64,000 nucleotides of DNA from Methanotorris igneus Kol 5 (GTDB taxonomy: Archaea > AGJL01 > Methanococci > Methanococcales > Methanococcaceae), in contig NC_015562.1 of assembly GCF_000214415.1 (NCBI RefSeq), positions 806,001 to 870,000 on the forward strand, read 5' to 3'. The position numbers and the translations under genes were made by a program. Shown here piece after piece: positions 8,105-63,252 of this stretch (positions are counted from its first letter, which is position 1; each line of letters begins with the position of its first letter). Under the pieces are notes generated by a model. The model was not told where the DNA came from. It ran no database searches and worked only from the letters and a program-made list of their open reading frames with translations.

Positions 8105-8251
8105 TATAGTCGTGTGCGAAATTTTTTAAACTTATTTATGCATTAATAAATTTTTAAATAATCTTTATTCCTCCTTAAAATTTGAAATAAGGTATAAATC
8201 TTTAAGAATTTGTCAATAGCATATTTCCAATTTCTAACGCACACGACTATA
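8105..8251. mobile_element. MITE-like element, TATAGTCGTGTGCG family, palindrome-free copy
   Basis: A 147-bp element with near-perfect terminal inverted repeats (TATAGTCGTGTGCG and CGCACACGACTATA). It starts 2 nt after the mptE stop. Relative to the copies at 11166 and 58935, it lacks the internal palindromes and so serves as the empty-site version. Ends in TA fit a TA target duplication. Confidence 0.85.
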
Positions 8252-8291: not shown

Positions 8292-9371
8292 TTATATGGA
8301 ACGATACAAAATCCTAATTTTTGCGGGATAATTTTTGACATATTCTGAAATAATTTCCTTCTCTATTCTTGCCTCAAGTTTTGACAGTATTCTCTCCTTA
8401 TTATGCCTCGAGAATCCATAAGGTATTGCCTCTCTAATCTCATCCAAACTTTCATAAGGTCTATGTTTTTCCAACTCTTTCGCTATTTTTTCTGGGAGAT
8501 ATTTTTCTAATTCAAATTCATTGGCAGTTTCAAGGATTCTATCTTCAAACCTACTCAAAATAATGTCTTTTAGTTTTCCTTTGTCATAATACTCCTTAAG
8601 TATTTCCAATGTTGTTGGAGGGAGCATCTCCTTTGCCTTTTCAAAGTCCCCACTGAATATATACTCTCTTATCTTTGTGCCACTAATCCCCTCCAATCTC
8701 CTAACAAACACAAATTTTGGGTTAAAATTAATTTCCCCCAATTTATTTAACTTATAAATTGTTTTTGACATTGAAGCGATAACATAGTTATCTATCCCTA
8801 ATTTTTCCCCGAGAATCTCCCCAGTCTCAATACACACTATTTTATATGGTTTTGGAGCAACATGGTAGCCCTTATTTATGCAATCAATAACCTTTTCCAT
8901 AGTTTTTTCTGGAATATAGCCCCTTGGAATGATATCCGCATTTAATTTATAAAACATCTTAACTAAACACTGCATATACTGCCCAGAACCCATAATTCCC
9001 ATCGGAGGTCCTTCAACAACAATATCCGCCCCAGCCCTTATTGCCATCTCTGCCCTTATATATCTGCTAACTAAATATGGAATTCCTCTTCCACTCCTTT
9101 CAAGCGGGCCAGGAACCACTGCTATAAATATGCCATGCCTTTTTCCAACATCCATGCAGTATTTGTGCCCTTTGTGGAGAGGGTTGTATTCTGTAAAATC
9201 GGCGACAATGGTGTCTGTTCCTTTCCTTTCTTTTAATTTTTCAACAATCTTTTTAAATTCATCAAAACTTTTGGTGTCCTTTGCTTTTGCATCTTTTATG
9301 ATTTCTTCCCGATCTTTTAAAAAATCTTTTAACATATAGGTGTTTGCGTTAGATATTGGACACACCTCCAA
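8292..9371 (-). CDS. HIGH-type nucleotidyltransferase family protein, TmcAL-like
   Basis: A 359-residue protein with a nucleotidyltransferase core starting near residue 52. [13 protein letters not shown] has the HxGH ATP-binding signature, and the [10 protein letters not shown] region (about residues 230-240) is the second nucleotide-binding motif. The TEYNPxHxGH block recalls TmcAL (tRNA-Met cytidine acetate ligase), but an archaeal role for this group is not established. The C-terminal ~100 residues are helical with charged repeats. The start is uncertain. TTG 9371 opens the frame and GGAGGTG overlaps it; ATG at 9335 is an alternative with no clear ribosome site. Confidence 0.65.
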
Positions 9372-9519
9372 GAAATTTTATGGGATTATAAAAGTTAATT
9401 TCAAATTTGAGGACAGTTAATATCTATTTTGAAATTTTGTTGGTATAAATATTTCCAAAAAATTTCGCAATCCACTGCAACCTACGGTTGCAGGGAAGTT
9501 GAATAATCTATGATTATAC

Positions 9520-9539
9520 GGCAAAACTGGGGTTTTGCC
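9520..9539. repeat. GGCAAAA palindrome
   Basis: A copy of the GGCAAAAC/GTTTTGCC family preceded by TATAC, in the spacer between the TmcAL-like gene and the tRNA. Confidence 0.8.
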
Positions 9540-9671
9540 ATCAATTTTTTACACTTATTAAATATAATGAATTTTTTGAAAGGTGAATAAATCAGGAGTT
9601 TAATTTTAGGAAATGGGTTATCTTACCTTTAAATTTATTGGTGGTTATAACCAATCATTAACGCGAACAAC

Positions 9672-9824
9672 TATAGTTGTTTGCCAATTTTATACGGCAA
9701 AACTTTGTTTTGCCATTTATTTTTTAAAAGGACGATAAATCAATTATAAAATTCCAAATAAAGATTAATTACTTTGTATATGATTTAATAAAGTTTTCGT
9801 TTATTTGTAAGGCAAACAACTATA
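9672..9824. mobile_element. MITE-like element, TATAGTTGTTTGCC family, complete copy
   Basis: A 153-bp element with inverted ends TATAGTTGTTTGCC and GGCAAACAACTATA and a palindrome at 9696-9714. It matches 63136-63252 in opposite orientation. It abuts the right end of another element fragment, so the two inserted side by side. Confidence 0.85.
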
Positions 9825-11165: not shown

Positions 11166-11481
11166 TATAGTTGTGTGCGGAAATGATATACGGCAAAACC
11201 TTCGGTTTTGCCATTAACCTATACGGCAAAACTCAGGGTTTTGCCATTAATTTTTAAACTTATTTATACACTAATGAATTTCAAATAGTAATTATTCTTC
11301 CTTAAAATATACGGCAAAACCTTTTAGGTTTTGCCAAAAAATTTGAAATGGCCCACAATCATTGAAAATTTGCTACAGCATATTTCCAGATTATACGGCA
11401 AAACTTTTGAGTTTTGCCAAAAGATATACGGCAAAATCCCTTGGATTTTGCCAAAAAACCTTTCTAACGCACACAACTATA
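11166..11481. mobile_element. MITE-like element, TATAGTCGTGTGCG family, enlarged by five palindromes
   Basis: The ends are TATAGTTGTGTGCG and CGCACACAACTATA. The backbone aligns with the 147-bp copy at 8105. The extra length consists of palindromes at 11192-11212, 11225-11245, 11313-11335, 11397-11418 and 11430-11452. Several sit at the same backbone positions as palindromes in the copy at 58935. Confidence 0.85.
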
Positions 11482-15273: not shown

Positions 15274-15282
15274 ACAAAAATA
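15274..15282 (+). repeat. Left 9-bp target duplication of the IS
   Basis: ACAAAAATA directly precedes the left inverted repeat and is repeated exactly at 16305-16313. Confidence 0.9.
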
Positions 15283-16304
15283 GAGGTTGTCGAAAAATTA
15301 TTTCATCAATGAATTTAAATATTACTCTCTAATACTAATAACTCTCATTAGTGTTAAAATATTATGAACGATTGCTACTGCTAAAGTAGCTCTACATCTA
15401 CTTTCAGGTAGTTTTTCATTTAGAGTTAATCTAAATTTAGTTTTTAGCCCTCCAAATATCGCTTCTATTACCCCTCTAATTTTATACAGTTTCTTATCAA
15501 ACAATTTTTTAACTTTCTTTCTGATTTTAGAAATACCGTAATCCCATTTAAACTCTTTTGTTTTAACTATTGGAATGAGGTCTATAGATAACAACTCTCT
15601 AAGTAAATCTTCATCATCGTAACCACCATCCAACAATATTATCGCACCTTTCACAAAATCTAAAGATTTTATCATTTTTAGTAAGTTTTTACTGTCTGAA
15701 CTATATCCATTATCCCATTTTACCATAACAATCGAAATTAATCCATAATCTTTATAATAGCAAGCTAATACGTGCATTTTGTCAAAAACCCGATACTTTA
15801 CCTTTTTTATTTCATTATTCACAACTCTGATTCTTTCACAATACACTCTTAATAAATGGACTCCAGTGGAATCAGCTATGTAAATTATAACCGATGATTT
15901 TAACGAATTAGCAATAATTAAGTGTAATCCAACGATTATTTTAGTTAAATCGCTTATTTTAATCCTCTGAAAAGCTTTTCCGTATGTGGAGCTATCTATA
16001 TGCTTTTTATGTAAATAATCGGAAAGAGTTTCTAAATCTCTTAAACTAATTCTAAAAATGTGTTTTATTATTAGAGTAGCTATATATTCATTGTAACTTA
16101 TAGCTAAAGGCCTTCCTACTTTGCGTTTTTCTTTATATGGAAGTAAAATATTTATAATAAATGAAACAAAATCATAAGTGTACTTAATATTGAATATCTT
16201 AAACCTCTTATCGTAGGCTTTCCAGTATCCTTTTCTTTTGGTTTTTCTGCCGCTCATAATTATTATTACTATTATTTATAGTATTCGTATTTTTCGACAA
16301 CCTC
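15283..16304. mobile_element. Complete IS4/IS5-type insertion sequence, 1022 bp
   Basis: Perfect 16-bp terminal inverted repeats (GAGGTTGTCGAAAAAT at 15283-15298; its complement at 16289-16304) enclose one transposase gene. The 9-bp target duplication ACAAAAATA is intact on both sides. It therefore arrived as a unit and fairly recently. The site is between TFS and cfbB, and no gene is broken. Confidence 0.95.
15322..16257 (-). CDS. DDE transposase of the IS4/IS5 group
   Basis: A 311-residue transposase. The catalytic Asp residues are in IADSTG (about residue 127) and LLDGGYDD (about 211). The C-terminal Y-x2-R-x3-E-x6-K signature reads YKIRGVIEAIFGGLK, the YREK motif of IS4-like DDE enzymes. 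The N-terminus is basic. The frame is intact with no stops, so the enzyme is probably active. It fills almost the whole IS. Confidence 0.9.
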   Translation of the reverse strand: MSGRKTKRKGYWKAYDKRFKIFNIKYTYDFVSFIINILLPYKEKRKVGRPLAISYNEYIATLIIKHIFRISLRDLETLSDYLHKKHIDSSTYGKAFQRIKISDLTKIIVGLHLIIANSLKSSVIIYIADSTGVHLLRVYCERIRVVNNEIKKVKYRVFDKMHVLACYYKDYGLISIVMVKWDNGYSSDSKNLLKMIKSLDFVKGAIILLDGGYDDEDLLRELLSIDLIPIVKTKEFKWDYGISKIRKKVKKLFDKKLYKIRGVIEAIFGGLKTKFRLTLNEKLPESRCRATLAVAIVHNILTLMRVISIRE

Positions 16305-16313
16305 ACAAAAATA
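16305..16313 (+). repeat. Right 9-bp target duplication of the IS
   Basis: ACAAAAATA directly follows the right inverted repeat and is identical to 15274-15282. Confidence 0.9.
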
Positions 16314-25397: not shown

Positions 25398-26099
25398 CTA
25401 ATCTTTCTTTGCAACAACGCCGATATAAGAACCAAAATTCTTTAAAAAACTCCTATAAATGAATTTGTCAATAAAAGTATTAGTTATGTTTGCTCCAAAG
25501 GTGTACTTTACCTCAAAATTATGCTTTTTTAATGCATCTTCGATATCTTTGAGCGTGTAAAATTTTGTCTTTACCTTTATTCTCTTTCTATTTGAAAATC
25601 TAACTAACTCCCCTTTTTTGTTTTTTATTGCCTTTATGGTCTTCTTTATGCCTTTCCTTTTTATATTTCTAAGAATCCATTTTATATCATAAGCGTTAGC
25701 AACAGTAAATATCAAAATTCCGTCTTTTTTTAGGATTCTTTTCATTTCCTTTAATGCTTTATCCAAATTTACATGATTTAATGCTCCAAAAAAGGATATT
25801 ACACAATCAAAGGTGTTATCTTTAAACGGCAAACATTCCGCATTTCCAACAACAACTAATTTATCTGCCTTCTTATGTGCTATTTTTGCCATTTCTATTG
25901 ATATATCTAATCCAACAGCATTATTTAACTTTTTCAACTGCTCTCCACTTCCACATCCAACATCCAAAACAAAAAACTCCTTTTTAATCTCTTTTGATAT
26001 GAGGGTATTTTCCACTTCCCTCATCCACTTCAATTTCTCAAAACTATATACTTTATCATACTCCTTTGCCAATGCATCATAATATTTCGCCAGTCTCAT
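25398..26099 (-). CDS. Class I SAM-dependent methyltransferase
   Basis: A 233-residue methyltransferase. Motif I is VLDVGCGSGEQLKKL (about residues 43-57), motif II VGLDIS, then CVISFFGALNH and LKKDGILIFTVAN. The substrate is not apparent. ATG 26099 follows GTGGGAAT; the frame is open further upstream to 26204, but that part lacks conserved residues. It converges with the GH114-like gene, 6 nt apart. Confidence 0.8.
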   Translation of the reverse strand: MRLAKYYDALAKEYDKVYSFEKLKWMREVENTLISKEIKKEFFVLDVGCGSGEQLKKLNNAVGLDISIEMAKIAHKKADKLVVVGNAECLPFKDNTFDCVISFFGALNHVNLDKALKEMKRILKKDGILIFTVANAYDIKWILRNIKRKGIKKTIKAIKNKKGELVRFSNRKRIKVKTKFYTLKDIEDALKKHNFEVKYTFGANITNTFIDKFIYRSFLKNFGSYIGVVAKKD

Positions 26100-26264
26100 A
26101 TTCCCACGAATCCCAATGAAACTTTTAGAAAAAGTTAAGCAAAACCTAAAACGGTTTAGTTGAATAATTAACTTCCCTGCAACATAATGTTGCAGTAGAT
26201 GCAACCAAAATTTGACATCTTCTCTTAAATCATCTCACAAATTCCAATATAGGATGTCCTAAGG

Positions 26265-26387
26265 TATAGTCGTTCTACAATTAGATGATAGTTAACATAA
26301 CTCTAATTTAAATTAAAATTTTGTTAAATTACCTAAAATTTAAAATTTGATATTATGGACAGTGCCGTAATTTGTAGAACGACTATA
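26265..26387. mobile_element. MITE-like element, TATAGTCGTTCTACAA family, inside a gene end
   Basis: 123 bp with inverted ends TATAGTCGTTCTACAA and TTGTAGAACGACTATA. It lies across the 3' end of the NicO-type gene and provides its final ~17 codons and stop. The ends fit a TA insertion site. Confidence 0.88.
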
Positions 26388-26980
26388 TACAACCCTATCA
26401 AAATTATTATGGTTCCACTTATTAATGGAAGTTTGTTTATTTTTTCACTTCCAGCATATTTTTGAATGAACTCTTTACTCTTGATAAATAAGACAGATAA
26501 AGTTGTCAAACTTAACGCCAACCCTATACTGAAAACTACCACATAAATCAGTCCATTTAAAACATCTCCCTCCACAATTGAAAATAAAAGGACAGCCAAT
26601 GCCGCTGGGCATGGGGTTAATCCAGCAGATAAGCCAATGGCAATAATTCCTTTTTTTGTATCTATTTTGTGCTCATGTGGATGGAAATAGCCATTCAAAA
26701 TCCACAATCCCACGCCTATTAGTATTGCTCCCCCTATTACACCCATCAAATCATGAGCAATACTTGCACTTACACTTTTTATCAGATAAATCGACAAAAT
26801 GCCAAGCATAAACACAACAAAAATGTGGGATAAGGTTATTGTTACTCCCAATGTTATAGCATCTTTAATATTGGCCTTAGTTCCCAAAACGTACGCTGCT
26901 AAAACACTCTTTCCGTGTCCTGGTTCAAGTGCATGTAACATGCCGAGTATAAATGCTGTTGCAGTGAAAACCAACTCCAT
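26333..26980 (-). CDS. NicO/RcnA-type nickel-cobalt transporter with MITE-derived tail
   Basis: A ~215-residue membrane protein with about six hydrophobic segments. GMLHALEPGHGKS is the His-rich metal motif of NicO/RcnA transporters, and LTPCPAALAVL lies in a later helix. A short His-rich loop (FHPHEHK) lies between. ATG 26980 follows GGTGG. The last ~17 residues (from IVVLQIT on) are coded by the MITE at 26265-26387, so the native C-terminus is replaced. It is divergent from cbiM, forming a metal-transport locus. Whether it imports or exports Ni/Co cannot be decided. Confidence 0.8.
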   Translation of the reverse strand: MELVFTATAFILGMLHALEPGHGKSVLAAYVLGTKANIKDAITLGVTITLSHIFVVFMLGILSIYLIKSVSASIAHDLMGVIGGAILIGVGLWILNGYFHPHEHKIDTKKGIIAIGLSAGLTPCPAALAVLLFSIVEGDVLNGLIYVVVFSIGLALSLTTLSVLFIKSKEFIQKYAGSEKINKLPLISGTIIILIGLYIVVLQITALSIISNFKF

Positions 26981-26995
26981 GAAAACCACCTTCAT

Positions 26996-27272
26996 AATTA
27001 CTATTTAAATAACTCGAATTAATGTAATACTTAATATCATTATGTTGGGGATTATATTTAAATAATTTATTACTAAAAAAGAAAATTTAATCAATATTAA
27101 AAATGCCTTTAATTATTTTGAATATGAAAAAATGTGAAAAAATTAATAAGAATCATACCAAATCATATTATTAAAGAATATTTGACTAACTATAAAAAAT
27201 CGTTAAGTATATATAGCAAAATCAAGTTTATAGTAATCAAGTTAATTTCTCTTGAATTAGTGGGGTGATAGT
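26996..27272. other. Divergent promoter region between nicO-like gene and cbiM
   Basis: AT-rich, no gene. As the spacer between two metal-transport units it is the natural place for a nickel or cobalt regulator site, but I could not identify a clear operator. Confidence 0.4.
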
Positions 27273-27968
27273 TTGCACATAATGGAAGGTTTCCTACCAC
27301 CAATGTGGTGTGTGTTTTGGTATGTTCTTTCAGGTATTGTAGTGGTTTATGGAATAGTGCAGTTGAATAAAATAATGAAAGAAAATCCTGAATATAAGCC
27401 ATTAATAGCACTTGCTGGAGCATTTATGTTTGTTTTGAGTTCCTTAAAGATGCCATCAGTTACGGGAAGTTGTTCCCACCCATGCGGTAACGGTTTGGGG
27501 GCTGTATTGTTTGGACCTGCTGTTACTGCAGTGTTAGGGGCTATTGTATTGTTATTCCAAGCGTTATTGTTGGCTCATGGTGGAATAACAACACTTGGAG
27601 CTAATGATTTTTCAATGGGTATTATGGGTCCATTTGCAGGATGGTTAGTTTGGAAAGCGTTGAAAGGAAAGATAAACTCAACATGGGCTATAATGTTGGC
27701 AGCAATCTTTGCAGATTGGGTAACTTATGTAACAACATCAATTCAGTTAGCTTTAGCATATCCAATACCTGACTTCAGTTCAGCATTTGCAAAATTTGCT
27801 ACAATATTCGCAGCAACTCAAATCCCACTGGCAATTGCAGAAGGTTTATTAACGGCATTTCTATGGGACTACATAAAGATGTTAAGACCAGACATTTTGT
27901 TGAAGTTAGGGGTTATTGATGAGAGTGAAGTTCCAAATGTTTCAGTATCTCCAAGTGGAGGTGAATAA
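27273..27968 (+). CDS. cbiM: Cobalt/nickel ECF transporter substrate-binding subunit CbiM
   Basis: A 231-residue membrane protein. TTG 27273 is chosen because the family's N-terminus must be Met-His: [10 protein letters not shown] matches the metal-binding N-terminal motif in which His2 ligates the metal, and GGGGTGATAGT sits just upstream. Other conserved stretches are [21 protein letters not shown] and GITTLGAND. It takes up Co(II) or Ni(II), with CbiN, CbiQ and CbiO following. In a methanogen this feeds F430, hydrogenases and B12. Confidence 0.93.
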
Positions 27969-35174: not shown

Positions 35175-35191
35175 ATTATTATTGCTTTTAA

Positions 35192-35308
35192 GTGTCGTTC
35201 CACAAGTGCACTATGAAATACCCATTAAATTTTATTAAATAAAAATTCCACAACTTCTATATTAAATTTGAAAATGAATAGTTTTAATACAATTGTGGAG
35301 CGACTACA
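35192..35308. mobile_element. MITE-like element, GTCGTTCCACAA family
   Basis: Inverted ends TGTCGTTCCACAA and TTGTGGAGCGACTA flank ~117 bp. They are related to the TATAGTCGTTCTACAA element at 26265, but the outer left end is eroded. Confidence 0.7.
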
Positions 35309-58682: not shown

Positions 58683-58830
58683 TATGGTCATTTACGGAAT
58701 TTTTCTCATATATCAAAACATAAAAAATTTTTTGGAAGAACAGTAAATTATTATGCAAAATTCAAATAAACTATAATCCACCTTTCAATTTTATTAATGA
58801 TTATGACTTCCTATAATGCAAACGGCTATA
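58682..58830. mobile_element. MITE-like element, TATAGTYRTKTGCG family, diverged
   Basis: It begins ATATGGTCATTTACGGAATTTT at the spt5 stop and ends AATGCAAACGGCTATA. It is the first unit of the repeat stack between spt5 and L11. Confidence 0.65.
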
Positions 58831-59165
58831 TAGTCATTCTGCGAATATGCGTTATGAATACCAAACTCTAATTTCAATTTGGCTTTGTTTAACAAACATC
58901 TAATTTAAAATTTTAAGTTATGTTAAGTGTTATTCATAGTCGTGTGCGGAATTGATATACGGCAAAACCTTTGGTTTTGCCATTTAATTTTTAAACTTAT
59001 TTATGCATTAATGAATTTTTAAATAATCATTATCCTTCCTTAAAATATACGGCAAAACCTTTTAGGTTTGCCAAAAAATTGAAATAATGGATAAATCTTT
59101 AAGAATTTACCAATAGTATATTTCCAATTTCTAACGCACACGACTATAATTGCAGAACGACTATA
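58829..59165. mobile_element. Outer MITE (TATAGTCRTTCTGC ends) containing another MITE
   Basis: The ends are TATAGTCATTCTGCGAA at 58829 and TTGCAGAACGACTATA ending 59165. A complete TATAGTCGTGTGCG element (58935-59148) lies inside, so that element inserted after the outer one. Confidence 0.75.
58935..59148. mobile_element. Inner MITE, TATAGTCGTGTGCG family, with two palindromes
   Basis: 214 bp with ends CATAGTCGTGTGCGGAA and TTCTAACGCACACGACTATA. The palindromes at 58961-58981 and 59051-59072 occupy the same backbone positions as two of those in the 11166 copy and are absent from the 8105 copy. Confidence 0.88.
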
Positions 59166-59199: not shown

Positions 59200-59306
59200 T
59201 ATAGTCATTTGCGTTATAAGTGGTTAGAAACACATAAAATTAAATATTGTTCTTTAAAACATTTGTTGTGGCTAAATAATATAACAAAAAATTTCGCAAA
59301 CTACTG
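59200..59306. mobile_element. MITE-like element, TATAGTYRTKTGCG family, reversed and eroded
   Basis: Left end TATAGTCATTTGCGTTATAA; right end AAATTTCGCAAACTACTG. The last unit of the stack upstream of L11. Confidence 0.65.
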
Positions 59307-59337
59307 TATTTGCAATATGCGGAACATTCAAAAAAAC

Positions 59338-63135: not shown

Positions 63136-63252
63136 TATAGTTGTTTGCCTTACTTCTTAACCTTTATTTGGAATTTTACAATGATTTATTATCCTTTTAA
63201 AAAATAAATGGCAAAACAAAGTTTTGCCGTATAAAATTAGCAAACAACTATA
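63136..63252. mobile_element. MITE-like element, TATAGTTGTTTGCC family, complete copy
   Basis: 117 bp with ends TATAGTTGTTTGCC and AGCAAACAACTATA and a palindrome at 63210-63228. It is the reverse of the 9672 copy. It ends 6 nt before the gene fragment at 63259. Confidence 0.85.

Follow-up and report, generated by a model that had tools for sequence, protein, structure and literature searches.

Genes and elements at the locus

The window, which is the whole 64,000-nt stretch of DNA analysed from the heat-loving methanogen Methanotorris igneus Kol 5, contains a MITE inside the 3' end of a NicO-type gene (Table 1). The protein carries a HALEPGHGK motif close to its N-terminus and scores 51.8 bits against the Pfam NicO family (cut-off 27.7; 1e-13), which confirms the family assigned in an earlier, sequence-only reading of this DNA. 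Against the nickel/cobalt efflux model NF007454 (NCBIfam PRK10019) it scores 109.3 bits, below the cut-off of 195 for the RcnA subfamily. The best label for the gene is NicO/RcnA-like, with a putative nickel/cobalt transport function. A PDB sequence search returned no relative.

Upstream, a CbiM-type gene (27273-27968; Pfam PF01891) is divergent from the transporter gene, which makes the interval 26995-27273 a possible site of shared, metal-responsive control. The methyltransferase ORF downstream has its listed TTG start in DNA that is absent from the sister genome, and the first shared ATG (MRLAKYYDALAKEYDK) is internal. Positions 26155-26205 hold another small dispersed repeat in the form of a twin hairpin (AGTTGAATAA..TTATTCAACTTCCCTGCAACC..GGTTGCAGTGGA), which has 33 genome matches, its own site included. 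It sits in about 80 nt that are absent from the sister, right past the native nicO stop. The same twin hairpins occur at another locus within a 265-bp MITE of the TATAG superfamily. Some of the further superfamily elements in the window are nested. All of them lie between genes, apart from 9335-9675, within which one listed ORF has its start.

Table 1. Positions of the transporter gene, the MITE and the neighbouring features in the window.
Feature	Position	Strand	Remark
NicO/RcnA-like nickel/cobalt transporter-type gene	26333..26995	-	220 aa; Pfam NicO PF03824
MITE-encoded C-terminus and stop TAG	26333..26386	-	IVVLQITALSIISNFKF
Stranded native 3' end of the NicO-type gene	26230..26264	-	empty-site reconstruction
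MITE copy	26265..26387	.	123 bp with both flanking TAs
Terminal inverted repeat reached first by the transporter ORF	26372..26387	-	16 nt
Opposite terminal inverted repeat	26265..26280	+	
MITE end sequence			TATAGTCGT; ends expected for a matching transposase
Methyltransferase ORF	25398..26204	-	downstream, same strand
Further TATAGT-superfamily elements	8105-8251, 9335-9675, 9672-9824, 11166-11481, 35190-35308		
Further TATAGT-superfamily elements	58829-59165, 58935-59148, 59200-59308, 63136-63252		

Structure and copies of the MITE

The MITE proper is 119 bp long (TAGTCG...CGACTA) and is flanked at both ends by the TA of the target duplication. Its arms (TATAGTCGTTCTACAA) are 16 nt each when the flanking TAs are counted, are 100% complementary and are spaced by 91 nt. 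BLAST of the element against its own genome (1,854,197 bp) gives 47 matches, with reverse-strand self-similarity counted in. The full-length copies are 92-98% identical, and the closest shares 121/123 bases. Other copies have sharply delimited TATAG...CTATA ends and unrelated flanks. The element is thus short, dispersed and multicopy, has terminal inverted repeats and is without transposase coding capacity, as is characteristic of MITEs. Comparison with the empty site in the sister genome shows that TA was duplicated once. The family is present in that sister genome (G001) and in genome G003. Within an open-access library, no paper describing the family in Methanotorris was found.

The rewritten end of the transporter gene

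The transporter ORF enters the MITE by 55 nt, and the protein ends in GLY followed by 17 residues read from the element and its TAG. The sequence-only reading had named the MITE as the source of the C-terminus and stop codon and had placed the final ~17 residues, from IVVLQIT, within it. Both claims hold: the perfect arms fall exactly at 26265-26387, the element is multicopy, and the element-encoded residues number exactly 17. That reading had also put the target TA inside a Tyr codon. The empty site supports a TA target, but in a symmetric parse its T is the final base of Tyr TAT and its A the initial base of Thr ACC, so that it straddles the two codons, and the Tyr is kept.

The original tail was held to be lost. 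It is indeed out of the gene, but it persists in the DNA at 26264-26230, where the rest of ACC is followed by TTA GGA CAT CCT ATA TTG GAA TTT GTG AGA TGA, which reads (T)LGHPILEFVR and stop. In-silico removal of the MITE and one TA restores, in frame, an end in ...GLYTLGHPILEFVR and stop (more fully, ...IGLYTLGHPILEFVR and stop). The only same-genus genome in the comparison is G001, a draft that we take to be M. formicicus. Its orthologue has no MITE at the site and ends in ...GLYTLGHLILEFVGF and stop (also given as ...IGLYTLGHLILEFVGF and as TLGHLILEFVGF, each followed by the stop). The tail restored at the empty site matches this element-free orthologue. Thus 11 native residues have been exchanged for 17 MITE-encoded residues and a stop.

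The new tail has a mean hydropathy of 1.66, against 0.47 for the native tail. In low-confidence structure predictions of three sequences (mean pLDDT 63 and 48), the last helix continues through the new tail, at 184-218.

The sequence-only reading had taken element-free orthologues ending in the same residues as the observation that would tell against it. Of the 16 element-free tails compared across the order, none shares the ending of the window protein (0/16); they end in GLYTxxH... or GxWNISGPL..., and the reading stands. The tails vary in sequence and length. The GLYTxxHP motif, which is widespread among orthologues (GLYTxxHP...), is gone from the window protein. The genus assumed for that comparison, Methanocaldococcus, was wrong, as a Methanocaldococcus genome belongs to the same order but is placed in another family. 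It is scarcely credible that the window tail represents the older state and that the MITE was lost in the sister species: the family does occur in both G001 and G003, but the element-encoded tail is absent from all 16 other orthologues, and the stranded native tail still matches theirs.

Other genes re-ended by the superfamily

The superfamily terminal inverted repeat (TATAGTCGTGTGCG) has 276 matches at up to 2 mismatches, whereas the reversed pattern has 4. The survey of gene ends covers 367 kb, about a fifth of the genome, and consists of the window together with stretches selected because they contain MITE ends. It contains 237 termini, compared with 11.5 (range 4-21) for permuted repeats, and these give 84 paired elements, with an upper bound of 153 elements in all. 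Every upstream frame was read into every terminus, and an ORF that stops inside the element was retained when 90 or more of its codons lie outside. Twelve ORFs stop inside superfamily elements. Eleven are credible, nicO among them; the twelfth, a 109-codon ORF at 1080385, was dropped as probably spurious.

The re-ended genes include trpS, carB, aksF, moaE, fdhA and a tetrahydromethanopterin hydro-lyase/HPS gene. In all nine that were compared with the sister genome (9/9), the orthologue end differs. Frame 0 into the terminus gives YSRVR, YSRLRYK, YSGSTTK or YSRSTIK before the stop, and in frame 2 TATAG itself supplies the stop, TAG. Most re-ended genes have either a short added tail of the YSRVR type or a stop on the element's TAG. 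Frame 1 is used by nicO only, and its new tail is the longest among them.

In aksF, the sister end ELRG becomes ELRG followed by YSRVR. In the hydro-lyase/HPS gene, INI in the sister corresponds to IDI followed by YSRVR. The empty sites of both place the insertion at the TA of the TAA stop codon itself. For moaE (WVE in the sister, WVE followed by YSGSTTK here), the orthologue fits a stop-codon TA as the target too, with the far end of the element unplaced. The sister moaE itself has a TAGTCGTTTGCG terminus immediately past its stop (GAATAATAGTCGTTTGCG), so this end may be a shared or twice-used insertion site. The carB end ...LNA in the sister is ...GL here, and the stranded tail restores LNA. 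The trpS end changes from INL to INNQL. For fdhA the evidence is less clean, as residues ahead of the element differ too.

Tolerance, decay and adoption

Taken as a whole, the observations are very probably explained by MITE transposition that re-ended the transporter gene, was tolerated and has recurred in this genome. The empty-site comparison shows that a TA-targeting MITE with TATAG termini inserted 11 codons upstream of the native stop and that the TA where the Tyr and Thr codons meet was duplicated. By sequence, translation now continues past the Tyr codon into the inverted repeat as IVVLQ... and reaches the TAG 55 nt in. The hydrophobic new tail is predicted to lengthen the last membrane helix and to contribute no folded part of its own, and production of a working transporter therefore probably continues. 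The same kind of insertion has re-ended at least ten further genes. In some of them it landed on the TA of a TAA stop, and a stop from the element follows within 18-24 nt. Landing by chance, together with selection against insertions deeper in genes, suffices to account for the pattern.

The proportion of elements located at gene ends was set against a yardstick from the window alone, in which TAs within the final 11 codons and the stop are counted among tolerated TA sites (intergenic and gene ends). By this yardstick gene-end TAs are 14% of tolerated sites, and the observed share is 11 of 84-153 surveyed elements, or 7-13%. No enrichment of gene-end insertions over chance was seen between the window yardstick and the surveyed elements, so no gene-end preference is needed, and tolerated insertion is the best reading. 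It is likely, on comparative grounds, that the insertion was tolerated and that the transporter body keeps its function. The sequence-only reading had allowed for either tolerance or adoption; with ten further genes affected, trpS, carB and aksF included, the first is favoured, and the second finds no gene-end enrichment behind it.

The alternative that the insertion inactivated the transporter, leaving an early pseudogene that has yet to accumulate stops or frameshifts, is unlikely. It draws on the loss of the conserved tail motif, on the polarised amino-acid changes (10 for the window lineage and 4 for the sister, which are small numbers) and on the youth of the MITE, as judged from its closest copy; because the element is young, decay would not yet be visible. 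Pairwise dN/dS of the transporter body against the sister is 0.16, a value that may mostly reflect time before the insertion. For this reason and in view of the 10 vs 4 changes, constraint on the gene may have been relaxed since. However, 203 codons of the ORF are intact and HALEPGHGK is kept, as the sequence-only reading had noted. No body column that is invariant among the other orthologues is altered, and the orthologue tails are themselves variable across the order. The probably essential genes trpS and carB are re-ended likewise, which argues that such insertions are compatible with function.

It is quite improbable that the termini of this MITE superfamily are portable translation ends, shaped by selection to end frames gently and filling the gene ends of a compact hyperthermophile genome. 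On this view a stop codon's TA would be a safe landing site, because TATAG gives TAG in one frame and another frame gives YSRVR- or YSRxxxK-like tails within 18-24 nt.

Still less probable is that this MITE was adopted, with the hydrophobic tail or the RNA hairpin selected for an effect on transport, membrane insertion or mRNA decay. The new tail does extend the hydrophobic segment, and the MITE strand folds more stably than its shuffles (z -3.8), which is expected of inverted-repeat elements generally. The tail properties, however, come from the inverted-repeat sequence and need no selection, and gene-end insertions are not above chance.

Comparison with known systems

The ending of genes by MITEs is already known, and the window case is a new, unusually clean archaeal example. 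According to PMC5896051, the Coxiella burnetii elements QMITE1 and QMITE2 overlap the 3' ends of functional genes, the functional annotated genes are all hit 3', and enhC of one strain takes its last 33 residues from a QMITE. As described there, they resemble the window MITE in this overlap and differ in their bacterial host. The enterobacterial ERIC/RU-1 elements (PMC2759123) are small, TA-duplicating inverted-repeat elements, one of which left an amidase without its normal stop and with an extended C-terminus. By description they share the TA duplication and the re-ended gene, but they are bacterial and their own reading frame is stressed. The Neisseria Correia/NEMIS elements (PMC2229807) have a terminal TA, terminal inverted repeats, target duplication and open reading frames fused to genes. 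They are likewise similar by description in terminal TA, inverted repeats and gene fusion, and unlike in their 24-bp terminal inverted repeat and host. Rickettsia palindromic elements (RPE; PMC10969869) are small palindromic repeats that lie in frame within genes. They carry a conserved in-frame peptide, whereas the window MITE terminates the protein. PMC2229807 also cites archaeal repetitive elements with coding potential that are fused into protein genes (Suyama et al. 2005). The window MITE is like these in gene fusion, as far as the citing description goes. The host treated by Suyama et al. was reportedly Methanocaldococcus jannaschii.

The window offers a base-exact archaeal case in which a transposable element swaps a protein end and the lost tail is readable alongside. 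MITE-supplied stops recur in at least 11 genes in about a fifth of the genome. C-termini such as ...YSRVR in the M. igneus genome are best annotated as element-derived. The re-ended genes form a natural series for the freedom of the C-terminus, in which the native end is extended by 5-7 residues, trimmed by 2-10 or, in nicO, exchanged.

Search for the mobilising transposase

Among the families searched, IS630 DDE_3 (PF13358) and DDE_Tnp_1, no transposase with ends matching the MITE was found, and DDE_3 gave no match at all. A sister-genome sequence that matches the MITE over its first 32 nt was rejected as an autonomous element: the adjacent ORF encodes a membrane protein of 396 aa, taken to be of cation/proton-antiporter type and not a transposase. 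Two DDE_Tnp_1 insertion sequence families were delimited, with ends GAGGTTGTCG and TAGGACTTTCGCAA, and the TAGGACTTTCGCAA family has a duplication of roughly 6 bp. Both DDE_Tnp_1 candidates for a MITE partner, one with 16 matches and one with 3 copies, were rejected because their ends differ. Positions 15276-16311 of the window hold one copy of the former, a nearly identical insertion sequence with a 317-aa open frame, 16 genome matches and ends GAGGTTGTCGAAAAA.
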